Shown here piece after piece: positions 32,587 through 54,445 of a stretch of 57,949 nt of DNA. The stretch is from positions 1 through 57,949 of the forward strand of contig JAQWWZ010000056.1 in NCBI GenBank assembly GCA_029254745.1, in the 5' to 3' direction. The notes under the pieces were generated by a model. It was not told the origin of the DNA and made no database searches. It saw nothing but the letters and a program-made list of their open reading frames with translations. The stretch is from Opitutales bacterium (GTDB taxonomy: Bacteria; Verrucomicrobiota; Verrucomicrobiia; Opitutales; Seribacteraceae). Within the stretch, counting starts at the first letter, position 1. Every line of letters begins with the position of its first letter. The position numbers and the translations under genes were made by a program.

Positions 32587-32961
32587 GTGTCATTAAGCGA
32601 TTATTTACCTGTTTTAATACAAATATTTATTGCCCTCAGCATTGGTGCGGGGATTTTGGTTGTCAGTCACATCTTCGGTCAGCGTGCGACTCGAAGCAAA
32701 ATCAAAGATTCTCCCTATGAATGTGGATTGGCGGCAGACACAAAGGGAGAGACTCGTTATTCTGTAAAATTCTACATTACTGCCATGCTCTTTATCCTTT
32801 TCGATATAGATGTTGTTTTCCTCATCCCTTGGGTATTATCTCACCGAGATTTTGTAGCAGCAGGAATTCCTATATTAGGCCCCATGCTCTTCTTCACATT
32901 TGTGCTTGTAGCGGGCTTAATTTACGAGTTAAAAAGCGGTGCCCTCGAGTGGGAAAAATAA
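32587..32961 (+). CDS. nuoA: NADH-quinone oxidoreductase subunit A
   Basis: 124 residues from a GTG start. Three membrane helices and the conserved loops of the complex I subunit A/NdhC family: SPYECGL (the quinone-site cysteine loop), RYSVKFYITAMLFILFDIDVVFLIPW and a final LKSGALEWEK. Inner-membrane part of respiratory complex I. None of the other nuo genes follow; the next gene is the EIIA-cyclase fusion 53 bp downstream. Either the nuo genes are scattered in this genome or this is a relocated copy. Confidence 0.92.
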   Translation: MSLSDYLPVLIQIFIALSIGAGILVVSHIFGQRATRSKIKDSPYECGLAADTKGETRYSVKFYITAMLFILFDIDVVFLIPWVLSHRDFVAAGIPILGPMLFFTFVLVAGLIYELKSGALEWEK

Positions 32962-33014: not shown

Positions 33015-34370
33015 ATGAGGATTGACCTTTACATTGCAAGCAATCGGATCATCGATCTGTCAAGCAAGGATTTAAAATCTGCATATTCCGAGCTCCTAAG
33101 TACATTTGGATCTGCTCTTCCAACTGCCCCAAAGCGGAGGAAGGTACTCAATGAACTTGTAGACCGAGAACGTTCAATGACAAGCTATATTGGGGAAGGT
33201 GTTGCCCTCCCCCATGCTCGGGTGGAAATGAAAAGACCTTATGCCCTGGCAATTGGGAGGTGCCCGGCAGGGCTCACTTTTGAAGGAAAAGACAGTTACG
33301 AGGATATTCGGTTTGTCTTTCTTCTTCTTGCTAGTAAAAAAGCAAAAAACTACCTTTCATTCCTCGCCTCGCTTGCCCGCACATTCCAAGATAAAGCGAC
33401 CATGGATCAACTGTGGATGGCACGCGAAAAGGCTGAATTCAAGACCGCAGTTCGAAATGCTTTTGTAGGAACAGATGACCGCCCGGCCCGGCGGAGAACT
33501 AAGTTTAACAAACTCCTGACAGACGAAGCCTCCAAAATTGCAAAGGCTGCAGAGTGCTCAACTATTTTGGTTTTCACAGACGTGTTCCCTCCTAGTCTAG
33601 CCCCAAGAATGACATTCCCTAACTTTAAAGTAGTTTTGGCGGGAGAAGGAGTTTCGGAAGAAGATCAAGCACATCATCGTGCGGATGCAACCTTGGCAGT
33701 GCGCACGCTTTCCCGCTCTAGGTTGTCGCAGTTGCGTGCAGCAATTCTTCTTGGCTTAACCCGAGATATTTTTGGTTTCCAAGATCGAGTTTGCTGCATC
33801 GGAGGGATACCGGGAAGTGGGCAATTTGACACTGTTTTAGTCGTTGATGTTGATGAAGAATTTGAATCTGTTATTGGACAGGGTGATGAGATGTTACCCA
33901 ACGATGTTTCGGCTGAAGCCTTAGAAAGGATTACTGCCATCGCAACCGACCTCGCTACCGCCGGTCGTGAAGGCCAGTCGATCGGGGCCATGTTCGTGCT
34001 CGGTGACCATGAAGAAGTGATTAAAAGATCTAAACAATTAGTACTTAACCCGTTCCATGGATACGGAGCGGAGGATCGGAGTATATTAAATCCTTTTATG
34101 GACGAAACCATAAAGGAGTTGGCGTTAATTGATGGTGCCTTTATTCTACGAGGCGACGGCGTGGTTGAATCAGCTGGATGCTTGATCCAAGCTAAAGCAG
34201 ATGAGATTGATTTACCTGGAGGGCTTGGTACCCGCCACGCAGCGGCTGCAGCAATTACCCATGTCACTGATTCTCTCGCTCTAGTCGTCTCTTCCTCCGG
34301 GCAAGTCACATACTTCAGGAAAGGTAGAATGTTTACCTTGTTTGAAAAATCTGAAGGGCGAGCACTGTAA
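33015..34370 (+). CDS. PTS EIIA domain fused to DacZ-like diadenylate cyclase
   Basis: 451 residues. Residues 1-150 resemble a PtsN-type EIIA domain with the phosphorylatable histidine in GVALPHARVE (H67). Residues ~165-300 look like the pyruvate-kinase C-terminal-like domain that precedes the cyclase in archaeal-type DacZ proteins. Residues ~310-445 are a DisA_N/DAC domain: GREGQSIGAMFVLGD, QLVLNPFHGY, the DGA motif (373-375), and the ATP-binding RHA (407-409, in GLGTRHAAAAAIT). Expected reaction: two ATP to cyclic di-AMP. Cytoplasmic, no membrane helix. The fusion suggests c-di-AMP output regulated by the phosphotransferase system (inference). It lies 53 bp after nuoA and 6 bp before nadD. 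Confidence 0.82.
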   Translation: MRIDLYIASNRIIDLSSKDLKSAYSELLSTFGSALPTAPKRRKVLNELVDRERSMTSYIGEGVALPHARVEMKRPYALAIGRCPAGLTFEGKDSYEDIRFVFLLLASKKAKNYLSFLASLARTFQDKATMDQLWMAREKAEFKTAVRNAFVGTDDRPARRRTKFNKLLTDEASKIAKAAECSTILVFTDVFPPSLAPRMTFPNFKVVLAGEGVSEEDQAHHRADATLAVRTLSRSRLSQLRAAILLGLTRDIFGFQDRVCCIGGIPGSGQFDTVLVVDVDEEFESVIGQGDEMLPNDVSAEALERITAIATDLATAGREGQSIGAMFVLGDHEEVIKRSKQLVLNPFHGYGAEDRSILNPFMDETIKELALIDGAFILRGDGVVESAGCLIQAKADEIDLPGGLGTRHAAAAAITHVTDSLALVVSSSGQVTYFRKGRMFTLFEKSEGRAL

Positions 34371-45592: not shown

Positions 45593-48500
45593 TTAGTCTT
45601 CTTTCAGTAGATTTTCAAGTGATGGAGATTGTCCGGTAAAATAAAGCTCTGAAACAATGACTTGTTTTTGCTCTGAAGAGAAATAAGAACTCGTACTTAT
45701 ATATTCTATCTTGCTGGAGACATCCGTGAGCGAAAGTAAGACAAAACTAACTTTTTGTTTTTGGTAATCAGCCATCTCAATAAATTTGTTCTGAGCAAAA
45801 TCGAAAAGAAGGACACCCCCTGGCTCATAAATTCCACCTTTCCAATAATACCATTTCTGGGTCTCCTCTGCAAAAAAATGCTCGAAGTATTCTTTACCCG
45901 TCCAAAACCAGCCAATGTCTTGATTCCACATCCATGATGCAGAATTCTCTCCACCGTCTTGAGAAATATAAAGCCACCCGATTCGCCCATGGAGAACCCA
46001 TGGATATTGGTTGCGCATCATGTAGCCAAACCCGGGCAGATATTGCCAACCGGGGAGGTTGGGAGAGCTCAGCACATGGATGGTTACATTTGCTGTGGAA
46101 GTTAATTGACCATCGTAAAGAGTGTATGAAAATTCAAATGGACCAATAAACTGAGGGTCCGGGGTATAGGTAAAGAGTTCACTCTCAGCCTTGTAATCAA
46201 TGGAAGCACTTTTACTCCAATCTGTGATTTCAATCGTTTCATTATCGTCTGGGTAACTCGAATCGTTCCCAAGTGTTGAAAACATCAAGGGTGCAAGTGT
46301 TGTTGAGTTATACTCAATCACATCATCCGAGGCTGTAGGCGGGTCATTAACTGCAATTACAGAAATGGTGGCAGATAGCTCGAGGCTTACATTCTGGTCA
46401 TCAACAACTAAAAACTGAATCGTGTCTTCCCCATTAAAGTCTAAATCTGGCATATACAGGTAGCCAGTGCCAGCAGGTTCTAAAGTTCCGAAATCCGGAG
46501 ATCTTAAAAAATCATACTCAAACGGATCGCCCTCTGGGTCATATACCTCTACATCTAGCAAAACCGCACTCGAAGGGTCTTCCATCAATTCAAAATTCGT
46601 TTGTCGCAAGGCTGGAGGTTCGTCAACATCCGAGATTCCTATATACAAATCATAATTGCCTGATGTGAAAGTATCATCCGAAACTTTCACCCCTACCATA
46701 TAAATATGATCACTTCGGTTGGACCGTATGGTTTCATAATCAGGGACATAGGATTGCTTGAAAGATAAAGCACCAGTGCTGATATTTAGATCAAACATAT
46801 GCATGTCAGCACCACTAGATAATGCATAGGATATACTCCCATTCACATCGTCTGATGAGGTAAGGTCGATAACAAATGCTTGATTCTCGAAATGGATTAT
46901 TGGGTCATCAGAGGTACCCAAAGCAGAAGTAATGATCGGTGGATCTTCATTGGCATTTATTACTTGAACCACCAATGAACGACTGGTGGAATTGATGCCA
47001 TCAGTCGCGTTCAAATCAACCTCATATAAATTGTCGGAGTTAAGATCTGTTGGATTTTCAAAATTTGGTGCGGTTAAAAATCTGAGTCTTCCCTCTTGGC
47101 TAAGATCAAACTCCGATATGTCTGAACCTCCTGTGAGCAAAAGTTCTATTTCATCGCCCTCAATATCAGAAAAGTTTAAATCCAAGACATCTAATTCATT
47201 TTCCATGACACGGAGTAAATTCGTTATGTTTTCGTCTAAATTATGAATGACAGGGTCAATATCAGCGACATCCAAGACTTCAACGGTCAAGGTTTTTTCT
47301 GCGGTCGCATCTCCGTCGGAAACGAAAATAGCAATCTCATAAAAGTTACTGGATTCGTTGGAGTCAGGGGTTTCAAAATCAGGCGGATTCCCTAAAAAGC
47401 TCAAGTCACCATTTACGGACAAAGAAAATAATTCATGATCGGCCCCACCACTTAAGCTCCAGGACAACTCGTCCCCTTCTATATCCGTTGCTTCTAAGGT
47501 ACTAATTGTCGTAAGATTTTCTGGGTGAGCTATGTCAATTCCGGTGATTATAATTGGAGCATCATTAACTTGAGTAATAGTAAAACCAATAGTTATTTGG
47601 GCTTTTAATTCTGCATGATCCTTAACTTCGAGTATTACTTCATCAGAACCATTTATGTTGTCAAAAGGTTGATAATGAAGAGTATCCTCAACAAGACTTG
47701 AGTCCCCAATAGTACCACCCTCAACAATCGACCAAGTTAGTGCACTTCCTTCAGGGTCAGACGCATTTAAATCACTTAATTCTAAAATGTGAAGAGTATC
47801 CTCAGGCAGAACGATCGAAAGCACTGCAGGATCAACATTAAATTCAGGCAAATCGTTTCCATCTGAAACACTTACATATAAATCAATTTCTGAAAAAGAG
47901 TTCTCTGGTCCATTGTCGGTGGCACGAACCACTACATGGTAGGAATTGTTTCCGTCAGATAGATCGTCTAAAGGATTTTCATAATCTGGTCCACTGATGA
48001 AACTCAAGACTCCTGTAGACTCATCGATGGTAAAAAATCCTGCATCTAAACCACCGGAAATTGAGAAAAAAGTATCTTCATACAGCCCTTCATCATTGGT
48101 TGCGTTTATGTCTATTACAAAGAGCGAGTGCTCCAATATCTGAAGGCTTTTTCCTTCTTGAGCCGTCGGTTGTTGAATCACCGGTGCTTCGTACAAATCA
48201 TCAACATTAATGACGACTTTTTCCATTACTTCTGATGATGGTTCAGCATCGCTGTCTGAAACTAAAATTTTTATTTCGTACTGATTGTCCTCATCTGCAT
48301 CCGTAGGAATCTCAAAATTAGGATTATCCCTGAAATACAAATTACCTGAATATTTCGGTCGAAAGACAAAATGTTCCGCATCTTCACTGGATTCATCGAT
48401 ACTGAATCTAAGTAATGTGTTGGTCTGGCTGAAATCGCCGAGAGAAACAGATATCACTGAAGATTGGTCGGTGAGAGCCATTTCATCATTGATTGTAAAT

Positions 48501-51500
48501 TTTCCAGAGCCATCATTGGTAAACCATCTAACATTTGAATCGGCACCTGCTGCCGCAACTAGGTCTAAATCTCCATCACCATCAATATCTCCAATATCAA
48601 AAGAGTTGATGTAAAAAGAAGAGCTGTAAAAAAAGGATGGGGCTAGAAACTCACCTCCACCGTTGGATGACTGAAGCAATACACCTAATTTACTAGAGTT
48701 TTTTGTGGTGACGACGACATCTAGCTTTGCGTCAGCATTTAAGTCGACAAGTCTCACTCCCTGTGCCTGACCATCTGTCTCGCTGTAAATACTAACGGGA
48801 TCACCAAAAACACCCCCTCCTTCGTTTATAAAAAGACTAAAGTTGCCATCCAAAGAGGAAGCAACCGCAAGATCTGTGTCACCGTCTTGGTCGACATCAC
48901 CCAATGACAAAGATTTTGGCTGGTTTATTTGCGAAAGGCTGAATGTAAGGGCCGATGGACCAGAAAATGTCAATTGTTCATTGGAGTGAGTAAACCAAAA
49001 TTCTCCTCCATTGCTAAACCAATGGATGTAATAGTCAGATGTAGTAGAATCTTTGCCGGTTGCAATTATATCAATATCCCCATCTCCGTCGATGTCTCCA
49101 CAATCAACATGCACAACATTACTGGATTCGAGCACTGAATCTATGGAGACGAAATCGAACGGAGCACTAGGATTACTCTGTAGCACTATCACTCTCCCAG
49201 CATCTTTGAGAGCAACGATAACATCAGGGTACCCATCTTCATTCAGGTCTTTTATCAATGCGTGCTGTGGATTACTTTCTGACCCGCTGTAAATGACATG
49301 GGACTGGGTAAACCCTCCCGATCCATTATTTTCAAACACGGTGACTTTGTCTGCATCTGCTTCGAGTAAGAGCACATCCATATCACCATCCAAATCAAAA
49401 TCTGAACCAGCACAGAAAGACGCGTCAATACCCTCAGAAATTACCGCAGGATCAAGAAAACGATTTTCAAGTTGCTCTGAATTTTCCAACCAAGAAATTG
49501 ACTCGTTGTCGACCACAATAGCCAAGTCTATGTAAGATGGTTTACTATCTTGATCAAAGGCTTCAAGTTTGGAAACAAAAGTCTGATTTTCTGGTACAAT
49601 TATTTCAGTCAAATCTGCACCGATAATGTTGGGTAAGTCATTAACATCTAGAATTTGAATTGAGAATTCCTGGCTAATTAAATTTTGCCCATCTTCAACA
49701 TTTACAGAAAATATGAATTTATTATCCCCATTTTCATCCAATGGACTTTCAAAATCTGGTGTAAAGGATTCATCAAAAGTAATTTCACCAGTGGTCGAAT
49801 TAATTAAAAAGAATTGAGAATCAAGGGACTCATCAAGAGAGAAAATATAGGTACGGTAAGAAGAATCTGTATCGGAATCTGTGTAATACTGAGATAAATC
49901 TAAAATGAAACTAGTGGAGCTTTCATTATGATCTAATACATAACTGATATCTGACTTGAATCCGAGTGGTTCATTATTGTCTGTGACTACAATTTCTACG
50001 CGTTGGACCTCGGAAGATAAACCATCCGACGCATTGACCTCCAAAATGTAGATATTTTGCCCCTCCACACCAGCGGGGTTCTCAAAATCAGGTGCATCTT
50101 TGAAAAATATTTCATTAGAGCCAAATGAATCGAACTCAAAGAGAGAGTTGTTGTTATCGATCTCATTGGATAAATCAAAACTGATATCCTGACCTGATTC
50201 CTCGACCCCTTGAGCCTCTACCATGTAAACGAAGGTAGTATTTTCGGAAATAAAAAGTTGAGCACTTAGCACTCCTTCAAGACTTGTGTAAACAGGGGGT
50301 TCATTCTTATTTCTGACTCTTACCCGCACGAGGTACTCGCCAAATATATCACTATCATCTGTGACTAAAACGCTAAAGCTGTAAAGGTTATCCTCCCCTT
50401 CATCTAGGGGTGATTCATAGTCAGGTGCATACCTGAATTTCAGAACAGCATTTGAATCAATAGTGAAATGGGATGCATCGCTCGTCCCATCAAGACTCCA
50501 TAAAAAGTCTGTTTCTGTACTATTAAATTCAACATCATGGAGGTCATTACCAATAAAGGAGGTAACACTCACATTATTTTCCCATACGAGAATTATATCA
50601 TTTTCTACCCGGTTCTCATCATCCGCATCACTGATACTCGGGGGGTCATTTATAGGGGCAACATCGACACTGATAGGAATATCTATGAACAATTCGTCCT
50701 CATCTGTTACCTTGACTGAGAATGAATCAACACCGAAATAATCCTTGTTAGGCGAGTACATTATTGCTCCGGAATATAAATCCACTGAAGCCTCTCCGTT
50801 CGACGCATTAATAGAAATTTCCCAAGTCAAGCTGCCACCGTCTGGGTCCTCTACTTGTAAATCTTCCCAGGCATCCTCCCAGGATATCGGAGCATTGTCT
50901 TCAGAAATAAACACGGTGGAAAGATTGGATAGTAAGGCAGGAGGTTCTGAAGAGTTTGTAACATTGATAACATAAGGATAATCGGAGACACCGTCATATT
51001 CGTCTTTTACAGAGATGATTATCTCATACCTGTTATTTAGCAGGGTTACCGAATCGTAAACGGGGGCTGTTTTAAATGAAAGCCTGCCCTGGTTTGAAAT
51101 ATCAAACAAATCTGCATCTTCACCGGAAACATTCCAAACTAAGTACAGGTCCTGGGTGTAGTGTATGTTATTATCTCCAAGATCATTAAAATCACTAGCT
51201 TCAAAATCAATAACTTCCAAGACCGATTCGTTGTGGTCGATGATATCGACAAAAGGTACGTCAGGACCGGTAATCTCCGGCGGATCGTTCACACCCAATA
51301 CATTAATTTGAATGGTTTGGTTTCTTTCAACTCCTTGTTCGTCCTCAAAAATGACGGTTAGAATTTCTGAACCATTCATATCGCGATTACTATTGAGTAA
51401 AGGATTAAAGGTCAGAACCCCATCTAGTTGACCGATGGAAACAGAGGAATCATTGGTTGGCGTGCTTAATGCATTTACTTTTGATGCTGTGGCTTCATCC

Positions 51501-54361
51501 CAGAGGAACCAGTTAATCCCCAAACTACTATTTGTCTCAGGATCAATTGCACTCCAAGCAGGAGATATAAACGAACTCGGGTCATCCTCATTCATTGAAA
51601 CCGATGTTGTAACCGTTCCGCTTAAATAAGGGGGCTCATTAACCCCCGAAACGAGCACTTGAAAATCGAAGATGTTGGAAACAAGAGGAGAACCATGACT
51701 GTCCGTGACTACAAGTGATAATTCATAATAATTATCGATATTTGCATCACCAGGAATTTCATAATCCAAAGAAGTTAAAAGCGAAAGCTCGCCAGTGCTT
51801 GAGTCCACAATAAAAAAGGAGGAATCATCTCCTGAGAGCACCCAAGAATGGGTCTGCCCTTGATCTTGATCCGTTACATTGAAGTCTGCAAAAACCTGAC
51901 CGCCCACCAGATCCTCTGCAATGGTGACAAGAGATGCATTATTACTTGTTTCAATAGTAGGAGCATCATTATCATCAGTAAGCTCAACACTGACATTCAA
52001 GTCCGATGGTACTCCCCCACTATCAACCGCTTGTACAATAAAGTTAAAAAGGTTACTACCCAAGTAAGAGGCATTGGCTTCAAAATCAGGGAGATTTATA
52101 AATGTGATTTCTCCTGTATCAGCATCGATGGCAAATTTACTAGAATCATCTGGGTAACCCTGAGAAACGATGAAGAAAGAATGAGAATCCCCAGAATCGA
52201 CATCAGAAACTGCTACCGCACCAACCTCTAATTGCTTTTCAGGTGCCAAGAAATACGAATCACTAACAAAAGTTGCAGGTTCAAAAACATCCACAACTTG
52301 AATCGTGAAATTTTGGAAAGAACTCCCATTACTGTCATAGGCTTCTATCGTAACCTCATAAGTATTTTGAGAGTCTAAATCCAACCTATTTTCAAAGTTC
52401 GGTGGATCTAAAAACCGAACCCACCCAGTCGTACCGTTGACTTCAAAATATCTTTGGTCATCTCCATGATGAATCGAATATGAAATATCACCCCCGTCTG
52501 GATCTGTTGCAGAAACCTGAAAATCACCGTTGCTATTTTCTGAGACTTGTAAGGAGACACTGGCGTTACCATCGTAAAGCAGAGTAGAAAAAACAGGCAA
52601 ATCGTCGGTTTGCAGAATGGTTATATTAATGTCGACAATATTGTGTAACTTACTGGTCAAGCTATTCCCCTCATCTTCGACACGGACTCTCATGAAATCT
52701 GTTCCGCTGTACCCGGGATTAGGGGTGTAAGAAATTGTAGTGGGACTTACTTCGGTACCAGTGTATTCTGCAGATCCGGAAACAACAGCTGTGCCGTAAG
52801 ACGGAACATCTTCTATGCTCCAGGTAAGAGTTCTCCAGCCACTGTTTGCACTGTAAAGATCCGGGTCTTCTGCGGTAAAAGGGGCAATAAAAGAAGAAGC
52901 ATTATCTTCATCCATAACAACAATCAAGGATGTAGGTGAAATGATTGGGGCTTCATTTAAATCTAGGATACTCAAAGTGTAATCCTGTGAATCGATTTGT
53001 CCCATTTCGTCGGTTACAGTGACCGCAAACTCAAACACGCTATCGCCATCATAAGATGAAGATGCTTCAAAATCGATATCCAAACTTGAAAGAAATTGAA
53101 GCTCTCCTGTACTCGCAATTATGTTAAATGATGAGCTGTCATTACCACCGGACAAAGACCAAGTGAGAGTACTTCCATCATCGAAATCATAAGCGGTAAG
53201 CATAACGGAATTAGCTGAATTTTCATCCAATGTTAAAGCTAGCACTGGATCGGATACTGCGACGCCTTGGTGAGTAATCACGGGGTCATCATTGTTCACA
53301 GGACTTACTTTTACCCGAAAGGTAATTTCGTCTACCCCACCACGATCGTCGATAACTTGGATGGTAAATTTATCGGCGACACCAGTCTGCCCGGCAGTGG
53401 GAGTTGCACCCGTATCAATACCCCACATGTCAGCATCAGGCACATAATTGACCGTACATTCATCATTATTATCGGTAATCGTGACTGCCCCATTTTGGGC
53501 ATTGGACGATATGGACCAAGTAAAGTCACTCGAATCCAAATCAGAGACAAGCAAGGTGTAATCTGACCAAGCAATTGGGCTTTCATCCTCATCGATGGTA
53601 AAAATAAGATCGTTATTCCCGTCTACGATAGTTGGGGCATCATTTACTTCTGCTATCGAGAGGGTAATTTCCTGCATGTCAGTACTCCCATTTGCGTCGG
53701 CAGCAGTAACTTCAAAAATATATTGATTATTGCTGTCTGAATCCTGGGGAAATTCGTAGTCAAACCCAGAAGTGGTATTAAAAAGGATTTGCCCACCGGA
53801 ATAACTAAATAAGTTTTGATCAGCTCCACCGGTGATAGTGATCGTGGGTGAACCACCATCAGCATCAGTAGCACTTGCATATGCAACAAAGGTTGTTCCC
53901 TCATTTTGCTCGTAGCTAATGGCTGCACTAGAGTCACTCGCGTTTGTCAAACCGGTGTATAAGACTGGTTCATCGTCCGAGGGTGAAACTACGATAACGA
54001 GATAATCATTTTGAGGGCTCCCAAGAAACGAATTTTCCGTGATAACCCCTGTCGATGAATCAGTACCATTCCAGTCTACATAGAAAGTACCGGAATAATC
54101 AGGGTCACTTGGCGTAAAGAAAAAAGTGGCTGTGCTCGAAATTGTCTGGCTATTCGCATCCACAAATTGACCAACCACATTACCTGTCACTGCATCGTAG
54201 GGTGGTTTAAGAATTCGGTAAATGCTAGTGGTTGCATCATGAGGTAGGGTTATCTGCATTGAAGTTCCACCTTCGCTGATTGGAGATTCCGAAGGAGTAT
54301 ATTGCCCATGTACGCAGATGCATACAAAACAGGGAAAGAAAAACCTTAGGAATTTGGGCAT
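45593..54361 (-). CDS. Giant secreted cadherin-repeat/FG-GAP protein
   Basis: About 2,920 residues, chosen start ATG at 54359-54361 (signal peptide MPKFLRFFFPCFVCICVHG); longer ATG options lie 30 bp upstream. About 14 cadherin-like repeats, each with xPDFExP... then YxFxVxVxDxxG, run nearly end to end, interleaved with tandem-95/Ig-like domains (YTPNPGYSG, YSPNKDYFG, YTPDPQFIG). An FG-GAP/VCBS-type propeller block with calcium-loop repeats (DFDLDGDMDV, DLNEDGYPDV, DIDGDGDIDI, DVDQDGDTDL) lies at ~1625-1980, nested inside one cadherin repeat. The end (~2810-2890) is Trp/Tyr-rich (GWLYISQDGG, WMWNQDIGWFWTG, WYYWKGGIY). Likely calcium-stabilised surface adhesin or matrix protein, secreted by an unknown route. 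No sorting motif recognised. Confidence 0.92.
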   Translation of the reverse strand: MPKFLRFFFPCFVCICVHGQYTPSESPISEGGTSMQITLPHDATTSIYRILKPPYDAVTGNVVGQFVDANSQTISSTATFFFTPSDPDYSGTFYVDWNGTDSSTGVITENSFLGSPQNDYLVIVVSPSDDEPVLYTGLTNASDSSAAISYEQNEGTTFVAYASATDADGGSPTITITGGADQNLFSYSGGQILFNTTSGFDYEFPQDSDSNNQYIFEVTAADANGSTDMQEITLSIAEVNDAPTIVDGNNDLIFTIDEDESPIAWSDYTLLVSDLDSSDFTWSISSNAQNGAVTITDNNDECTVNYVPDADMWGIDTGATPTAGQTGVADKFTIQVIDDRGGVDEITFRVKVSPVNNDDPVITHQGVAVSDPVLALTLDENSANSVMLTAYDFDDGSTLTWSLSGGNDSSSFNIIASTGELQFLSSLDIDFEASSSYDGDSVFEFAVTVTDEMGQIDSQDYTLSILDLNEAPIISPTSLIVVMDEDNASSFIAPFTAEDPDLYSANSGWRTLTWSIEDVPSYGTAVVSGSAEYTGTEVSPTTISYTPNPGYSGTDFMRVRVEDEGNSLTSKLHNIVDINITILQTDDLPVFSTLLYDGNASVSLQVSENSNGDFQVSATDPDGGDISYSIHHGDDQRYFEVNGTTGWVRFLDPPNFENRLDLDSQNTYEVTIEAYDSNGSSFQNFTIQVVDVFEPATFVSDSYFLAPEKQLEVGAVAVSDVDSGDSHSFFIVSQGYPDDSSKFAIDADTGEITFINLPDFEANASYLGSNLFNFIVQAVDSGGVPSDLNVSVELTDDNDAPTIETSNNASLVTIAEDLVGGQVFADFNVTDQDQGQTHSWVLSGDDSSFFIVDSSTGELSLLTSLDYEIPGDANIDNYYELSLVVTDSHGSPLVSNIFDFQVLVSGVNEPPYLSGTVTTSVSMNEDDPSSFISPAWSAIDPETNSSLGINWFLWDEATASKVNALSTPTNDSSVSIGQLDGVLTFNPLLNSNRDMNGSEILTVIFEDEQGVERNQTIQINVLGVNDPPEITGPDVPFVDIIDHNESVLEVIDFEASDFNDLGDNNIHYTQDLYLVWNVSGEDADLFDISNQGRLSFKTAPVYDSVTLLNNRYEIIISVKDEYDGVSDYPYVINVTNSSEPPALLSNLSTVFISEDNAPISWEDAWEDLQVEDPDGGSLTWEISINASNGEASVDLYSGAIMYSPNKDYFGVDSFSVKVTDEDELFIDIPISVDVAPINDPPSISDADDENRVENDIILVWENNVSVTSFIGNDLHDVEFNSTETDFLWSLDGTSDASHFTIDSNAVLKFRYAPDYESPLDEGEDNLYSFSVLVTDDSDIFGEYLVRVRVRNKNEPPVYTSLEGVLSAQLFISENTTFVYMVEAQGVEESGQDISFDLSNEIDNNNSLFEFDSFGSNEIFFKDAPDFENPAGVEGQNIYILEVNASDGLSSEVQRVEIVVTDNNEPLGFKSDISYVLDHNESSTSFILDLSQYYTDSDTDSSYRTYIFSLDESLDSQFFLINSTTGEITFDESFTPDFESPLDENGDNKFIFSVNVEDGQNLISQEFSIQILDVNDLPNIIGADLTEIIVPENQTFVSKLEAFDQDSKPSYIDLAIVVDNESISWLENSEQLENRFLDPAVISEGIDASFCAGSDFDLDGDMDVLLLEADADKVTVFENNGSGGFTQSHVIYSGSESNPQHALIKDLNEDGYPDVIVALKDAGRVIVLQSNPSAPFDFVSIDSVLESSNVVHVDCGDIDGDGDIDIIATGKDSTTSDYYIHWFSNGGEFWFTHSNEQLTFSGPSALTFSLSQINQPKSLSLGDVDQDGDTDLAVASSLDGNFSLFINEGGGVFGDPVSIYSETDGQAQGVRLVDLNADAKLDVVVTTKNSSKLGVLLQSSNGGGEFLAPSFFYSSSFYINSFDIGDIDGDGDLDLVAAAGADSNVRWFTNDGSGKFTINDEMALTDQSSVISVSLGDFSQTNTLLRFSIDESSEDAEHFVFRPKYSGNLYFRDNPNFEIPTDADEDNQYEIKILVSDSDAEPSSEVMEKVVINVDDLYEAPVIQQPTAQEGKSLQILEHSLFVIDINATNDEGLYEDTFFSISGGLDAGFFTIDESTGVLSFISGPDYENPLDDLSDGNNSYHVVVRATDNGPENSFSEIDLYVSVSDGNDLPEFNVDPAVLSIVLPEDTLHILELSDLNASDPEGSALTWSIVEGGTIGDSSLVEDTLHYQPFDNINGSDEVILEVKDHAELKAQITIGFTITQVNDAPIIITGIDIAHPENLTTISTLEATDIEGDELSWSLSGGADHELFSLSVNGDLSFLGNPPDFETPDSNESSNFYEIAIFVSDGDATAEKTLTVEVLDVADIDPVIHNLDENITNLLRVMENELDVLDLNFSDIEGDEIELLLTGGSDISEFDLSQEGRLRFLTAPNFENPTDLNSDNLYEVDLNATDGINSTSRSLVVQVINANEDPPIITSALGTSDDPIIHFENQAFVIDLTSSDDVNGSISYALSSGADMHMFDLNISTGALSFKQSYVPDYETIRSNRSDHIYMVGVKVSDDTFTSGNYDLYIGISDVDEPPALRQTNFELMEDPSSAVLLDVEVYDPEGDPFEYDFLRSPDFGTLEPAGTGYLYMPDLDFNGEDTIQFLVVDDQNVSLELSATISVIAVNDPPTASDDVIEYNSTTLAPLMFSTLGNDSSYPDDNETIEITDWSKSASIDYKAESELFTYTPDPQFIGPFEFSYTLYDGQLTSTANVTIHVLSSPNLPGWQYLPGFGYMMRNQYPWVLHGRIGWLYISQDGGENSASWMWNQDIGWFWTGKEYFEHFFAEETQKWYYWKGGIYEPGGVLLFDFAQNKFIEMADYQKQKVSFVLLSLTDVSSKIEYISTSSYFSSEQKQVIVSELYFTGQSPSLENLLKED
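48420..49500 (-). other. FG-GAP propeller inserted within a cadherin repeat
   Basis: Domain within the giant protein. Six or so DxDxDGxxD-type repeats (FG-GAP/VCBS) interrupt a cadherin repeat: the first half (ENQTFVSKLEAFDQDSK) lies before and the second half (RFSIDESSEDAEHFVF then NPNFEIPTDADEDNQYEI) after. Limits approximate. Confidence 0.7.
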
Positions 54362-54445
54362 ATTCAACATAAATCTAACTAACATCAGCATGGGAGATAA
54401 GTAATTCTTTGCAAGAAATATAAAATCGGCTGAGAAGATGATTTC

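Follow-up and report, generated by a model that had tools for sequence, protein, structure and literature searches.

The housekeeping diadenylate cyclase (DAC) CdaA/DacA, usually present once per genome in the Verrucomicrobiota and characterized by DGA and RH motifs, is membrane-anchored and inhibited by GlmM in the species studied (PMC8573169). DAC domains need two active sites placed head-to-head, as stated for CdaA (PMC8573169). In the archaeal and bacterial enzymes DacZ and DacY/CdaZ, the DAC domain is preceded by a domain for which the fold of the C-terminal domain of pyruvate kinase (PK_C) has already been reported; DacZ of H. volcanii makes c-di-AMP with Mn2+ and is essential (PMC6741144). 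"DacD" is a further, previously defined bacterial class (PMC6741144, citing Corrigan & Gruendling 2013 and Commichau et al. 2018), with five representatives, from Lacunisphaera, Coraliomargarita, Puniceicoccaceae, Opitutae, and a "Verrucomicrobia bacterium" (PMC6741144).

Here we describe a cyclase that is joined to an EIIA domain of the phosphotransferase system (PTS). The signals that control c-di-AMP synthesis are, to our knowledge, largely open, and the inputs we know of are protein partners such as GlmM. In the PTS, EI and HPr pass phosphate from phosphoenolpyruvate (PEP) to EIIA histidines, and enterobacterial EIIA-Glc acts on adenylate cyclase. The logic that we propose below would be analogous, with a PTS EIIA setting the activity of a cyclic-nucleotide synthase, but the EIIA-Glc system involves a different EIIA family, a different nucleotide, and no covalent joining of the two partners.

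The window, meaning the whole stretch of DNA analyzed (57,949 nucleotides, contig JAQWWZ010000056.1), comes from an Opitutales bacterium whose assembly (GCA_029254745.1) comprises 2.45 Mb and is 96.5% complete. It contains an uninterrupted open reading frame with an ATG start that encodes a three-domain protein (Table 1). The initial annotation described an EIIA domain fused to a DacZ-like cyclase, and both domains score above their Pfam cutoffs (PTS_EIIA_2, E = 2.9e-19, 69.9 bits against 27; DAC, E = 5.6e-21, 74.8 bits against 27); the refuting outcome named there, that one of the two domains would fit no model, did not occur. It overlooked the domain between them, which matches DacZ_P (E = 1.7e-11, 44.3 bits against 27.4) and gives the protein the order of DacZ/CdaZ-type cyclases, with a PK_C-like domain N-terminal to DAC. 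The best NCBIfam model is that of haloarchaeal DacZ (NF041371, E = 7e-29); the score of 100.9 bits lies under the equivalog cutoff of 430 bits, and the fusion is therefore a relative rather than an ortholog of haloarchaeal DacZ. The equivalog cutoffs of TIGR01419 (PtsN; E = 2.5e-11, 43.6 against 138.7 bits) and TIGR00159 (CdaA/DacA; 28 against 188.8 bits) are likewise not reached. Sequence searches of the PDB match the N-terminal part to PtsN and the C-terminal part to CdaA-type diadenylate cyclases.

Table 1. Position and supporting evidence of the features discussed, in window coordinates
Feature	Coordinates	Strand	Evidence
nuoA (complex I chain 3), directly upstream of the fusion	32587..32961	+	Pfam Oxidored_q4 1.8e-28
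EIIA - DacZ_P (PK_C-like) - DAC fusion, 451 aa	33015..34370	+	ORF, Pfam, AlphaFold2, fold match
EIIA domain (PtsN/fructose-mannitol type), residues 1-152	33015..33470	+	Pfam 42-145; fold 1-152
H67, predicted phospho-acceptor histidine	33213..33215	+	alignment with PH histidine of PtsN
Y113, replaces second histidine of ordinary EIIA_2	33351..33353	+	aligned to His of PtsN
DacZ_P "probable sensor" domain, residues 167-282	33513..33860	+	Pfam; pyruvate kinase C-terminal domain fold
DAC (diadenylate cyclase) domain, residues 314-438	33954..34328	+	Pfam, fold match
DGA motif (D373 G374 A375)	34131..34139	+	D373, G374 invariant, 80 relatives listed
R407-H408 of DAC "RHR-like" motif	34233..34238	+	invariant, 80 relatives listed

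A full-length AlphaFold2 model built from 80 sequences has a mean pLDDT of 86 and a pTM of 0.60, which is low and indicates that the coupling between domains is not captured. The structure prediction that had been proposed as a check bears out both assigned domains: residues 1 through 152 of the model adopt the EIIA-Ntr fold (Z = 18.6) and residues about 294 through 446 the CdaA/DisA fold (Z about 15). The middle domain (residues 159 through 285) adopts the fold of the C-terminal domain of pyruvate kinase 5wrp (Z = 13.6 over 120 residues, rmsd 2.9), and a profile of this domain alone matches almost exclusively pyruvate kinases (best E = 7.9e-4); its fold was already known for this type of cyclase from the earlier report (PMC6741144). 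The fusion thus shares its middle and DAC domains with DacZ and DacY/CdaZ, but these enzymes lack the EIIA domain. The EIIA domain itself is closest in fold to PtsN (EIIA-Ntr) and resembles it around the acceptor histidine, whereas PtsN is free-standing and the EIIA of the fusion is joined to an enzyme and has Tyr for the second histidine. Chance or misassembly, and a peculiarity of the source genome, were considered as origins of the gene and ruled out, as 41 of 43 Opitutales genomes carry the fusion and it is also present in other phyla.

In a search of 289 genomes of the phylum, all of these 41 copies were full-length, and a few further full-length fusions, at about 31% identity, were found in other classes. 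A DAC search of 195 genomes detected the domain in 32 of 34 Opitutales genomes, once in each except G173, which has two, with scores comparable to that of the fusion (E about 1e-17 to 1e-23). Nearly all of the genomes outside the order have a CdaA-like DAC, mostly of about 250 to 380 aa, with E about 1e-33 to 1e-44; the fusion therefore stands in for CdaA in Opitutales. It resembles CdaA in being a housekeeping DAC with DGA and RH motifs, usually one per genome; unlike for CdaA, no inhibitory partner of the GlmM type was identified for it in this analysis. The second cyclase of G173 (L039) is a 296-aa DacZ that lacks EIIA and sits on a very long branch (3.33). Two Opitutales genomes, G102 and G146, have no DAC domain that we could find, and G146 also lacks HPr; they are candidates for c-di-AMP-free relatives or for assembly gaps.

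Among the matches listed from a scan of GTDB genomes, the fusion occurs in Verrucomicrobiota, Kiritimatiellota, Planctomycetota (Schlesneria, Pirellulales), Spirochaetota, and Fibrobacterota, and the same cyclase without EIIA in Thermodesulfobacteriota. EIIA_2 is present in 74 and DAC in all of the 80 relatives listed. In a phylogeny of the middle and DAC domains, one branch (98/94 support, recovered in 99% of bootstrap trees) has every EIIA-free row on the same side, and the fusion of the window falls within a 100/100 group with Opitutales rows. The topology is consistent with one fusion event; this origin is provisional, since the scan was seeded with a fusion alignment, 80 loci were listed, and EIIA-free DacZ is under-sampled.

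The prevalence of the fusion in Opitutales bears on DacD: all five proteins listed for that class are verrucomicrobial, and Opitutae account for at least four. Because of this, and because Opitutales has in practice no DAC other than the fusion, the architecture described here is very probably that of class DacD, a membership read from the representatives listed. No functional or experimental study of DacD or of an EIIA-DAC fusion, and no paper joining EIIA and DAC, was found in the literature searched, outside which lies a 2023 work by Galperin, "All DACs in a row", reportedly a census of DAC architectures that may describe the fusion. The locus is thus very probably a member of a catalogued class for which we found no functional study, so that the initial statement that there is no well-described system holds for function but probably not for architecture. 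New here are the PTS setting of the fusion, its substitution for CdaA, its occurrence across phyla, its pairing with nuoA, and the pattern of conservation and loss of the acceptor histidine.

The DGA and RHA motifs noted in the initial reading are both present (the latter R407-H408-A409), and the fusion carries the catalytic DGA and RH motifs of DacZ/CdaZ-type cyclases. Among the 80 relatives listed, the DAC domain of the window has the most departures from consensus: V302A, E316A, N356S, and T428S fall at near-invariant columns, and the S-x-S-T-G loop is one residue shorter. Given these deviations and the long branch on which this copy lies in the tree, its cyclase activity, predicted from sequence, should not be assumed.

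H67, named from the outset as a PtsN-type EIIA histidine, is part of the sequence ALPHAR and, as claimed, corresponds in alignment to the PH histidine of PtsN. Position 67 is His in 71 of the 74 fusions, drawn from five phyla, among the 80 relatives listed, and Gln, Lys, and Tyr in one each; in a second, partly overlapping set (n = 45), 43 have His and the two congeners L040 and L041 have Ser. Otherwise low in identity across the 74 fusions, the EIIA domain is most conserved at columns that include P66, H67, R51, and E52. The first reading missed the loss of the second active-site histidine, a residue typical of PTS_EIIA_2, if not universal, which contributes to phosphoryl handling in EIIAs that serve transport. 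Position 113 is Tyr in 35 and His in 27 of the 74 fusions; it is Tyr in Opitutales and mostly His in the planctomycete, spirochaete, and kiritimatiellote copies.

H67 has been lost from fusions that persist in L040/L041 (Ser), in two Fibrobacterota (Gln and Lys), and in L134 (Tyr); control through H67 is therefore not universal. Such sporadic losses, and retention of the gene in L040/L041 while its EIIA domain decays, would be expected if EIIA served to aid oligomerization, with no part in signaling, and if conservation of H67 were a relic of the fold. We consider this unlikely: the histidine stands in all but three of the 74 fusions though most of the domain has diverged, and the lineages that lost it are few and scattered. 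The fused EIIA of L040 and L041 (genus g21, family f4) carries H67S and scores only 28.9 and 26.6 bits, and these two genomes contain EI, HPr, and a free-standing EIIA of 161 aa, an apparent un-fusing of the function. The Fibrobacterota copies with Gln or Lys are L064 and L101, and that of L101 sits between acyltransferase-like and dnaG-like genes (names by sequence reading).

The source genome holds the components that would be needed to phosphorylate H67. The presence of ptsI and ptsH, proposed initially as a check, was established, with one EI, one HPr carrying His and Ser sites (GVHARPAA and NAKS), and, in addition, one HPr kinase (HPrK) with a P-loop. EI was found in each of the 47 genomes tested and HPr in 46 of them; the genome without HPr has no fusion either. 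The fusion is the only PTS_EIIA_2 protein and the only DAC gene found in its own genome; no second DAC that could do the housekeeping work was detected. Within the 16 fusion-bearing Opitutales genomes searched for EIIA_2, it is the only one in three (G000, G205, and G128); the others have additional EIIA_2 proteins, as do most relatives with the fusion, so that a role as sole output does not hold generally. As other targets of EI-HPr, a PTS permease and EIIA-man were considered; a search that covered the PTS_EIIC and EIIA-man families gave no match in the genome.

We think it probable, though by no means assured, that the fusion is a housekeeping c-di-AMP synthase with an EIIA receiver, in which phosphorylation of H67 by EI-HPr controls c-di-AMP synthesis. 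PEP would phosphorylate EI, EI would phosphorylate HPr, and HPr would in turn phosphorylate H67, with HPrK tuning the supply of phosphorylatable HPr. From what is known of PTS and DAC proteins and from the anatomy of the fusion, we infer that the phosphorylation state of H67 would change how the C-terminal DAC domains are arranged and thereby alter, in either direction, the rate at which two ATP are converted to c-di-AMP; a metabolite bound to the pyruvate-kinase-like middle domain may provide a second input. That phosphotransferase state could set c-di-AMP levels, as first suggested, is thus the best reading of the locus. We count in its favor the domain assignments by HMM and fold, the retention of H67, the invariant DAC residues, the presence of EI, HPr, and HPrK, the status of the fusion as sole DAC, an EI gene beside the Pontiellaceae copy, and a tree consistent with one fusion event; against it, we count the H67 losses, Y113, the extra EIIA_2 proteins of relatives, the deviant DAC of the window, and the low pTM. 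A synthase with a built-in PTS receiver, present order-wide and in several phyla, would tie c-di-AMP to carbon and energy status.

The main alternative is suggested by E. coli PtsN, which in its unphosphorylated state binds TrkA and KdpD. By analogy, the unphosphorylated EIIA domain might dock onto K+ transporters or sensors and bring the synthase to the K+ machinery that c-di-AMP controls, phosphorylation merely releasing it from these proteins. EIIA-Ntr is the best fold match, c-di-AMP acts on K+ homeostasis in characterized systems, TrkA_C domains occur in three ORFs of the genome, and the second EIIA histidine is Tyr in Opitutales, all of which would suit docking; we nonetheless hold it to be rather improbable, as the strong conservation of H67 and its neighbors and the presence of EI, HPr, and HPrK fit active phosphoryl transfer. 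The TrkA_C ORFs are possible downstream parts of c-di-AMP signaling, as is a protein of 334 aa that matches DHHA1 and might break down c-di-AMP or pApA.

Information might also flow in the opposite direction, with occupancy of the DAC domain by ATP or c-di-AMP setting the acceptance of phosphate by EIIA and the protein acting as an energy sensor on the PTS side. This would give a task to an EIIA that, with no PTS_EIIC found, has no recognizable transport role in its own genome, but the invariant catalytic motifs of DAC and its status as sole DAC point to synthesis as the conserved output and make such a sensor very improbable. Returning to control of synthesis through H67, we suggest tentatively, as a possibility rather than an expectation, that the PTS is here not a sugar importer but a PEP-EI-HPr(-HPrK) relay that ends on a c-di-AMP synthase, perhaps in similar genomes too. 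If so, c-di-AMP would be a direct read-out of PEP/pyruvate state, made by one enzyme with two inputs, phosphorylation of EIIA and a ligand of the pyruvate-kinase-like domain, and the EI-HPr-HPrK set would have a role where no PTS permease was found.

In Opitutales the recurring neighbor of the fusion is nuoA. In 40 of 41 loci it is the gene immediately upstream, in the same orientation, and the two are separated by about 14 to 178 bases; this conserved pairing suggests that the two genes share a transcript. Upstream of nuoA, the window has pseudopilin-like genes on the opposite strand rather than other nuo genes. Conserved c-di-AMP or PTS neighbors were sought as context, and none was seen recurring apart from EI beside the Pontiellaceae copy (L115). 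In that locus EI is encoded on the opposite strand, 0.3 kb behind the fusion, and additional EIIA domains are found on both sides of the fusion. The fusion is followed in the window by nadD and rsfS, which were not found behind it in relatives. A search of the window for RNA switches (Rfam, gathering threshold) matched only a tRNA. By far the longest open reading frame of the window (45593-54391, minus strand) encodes 2932 aa.
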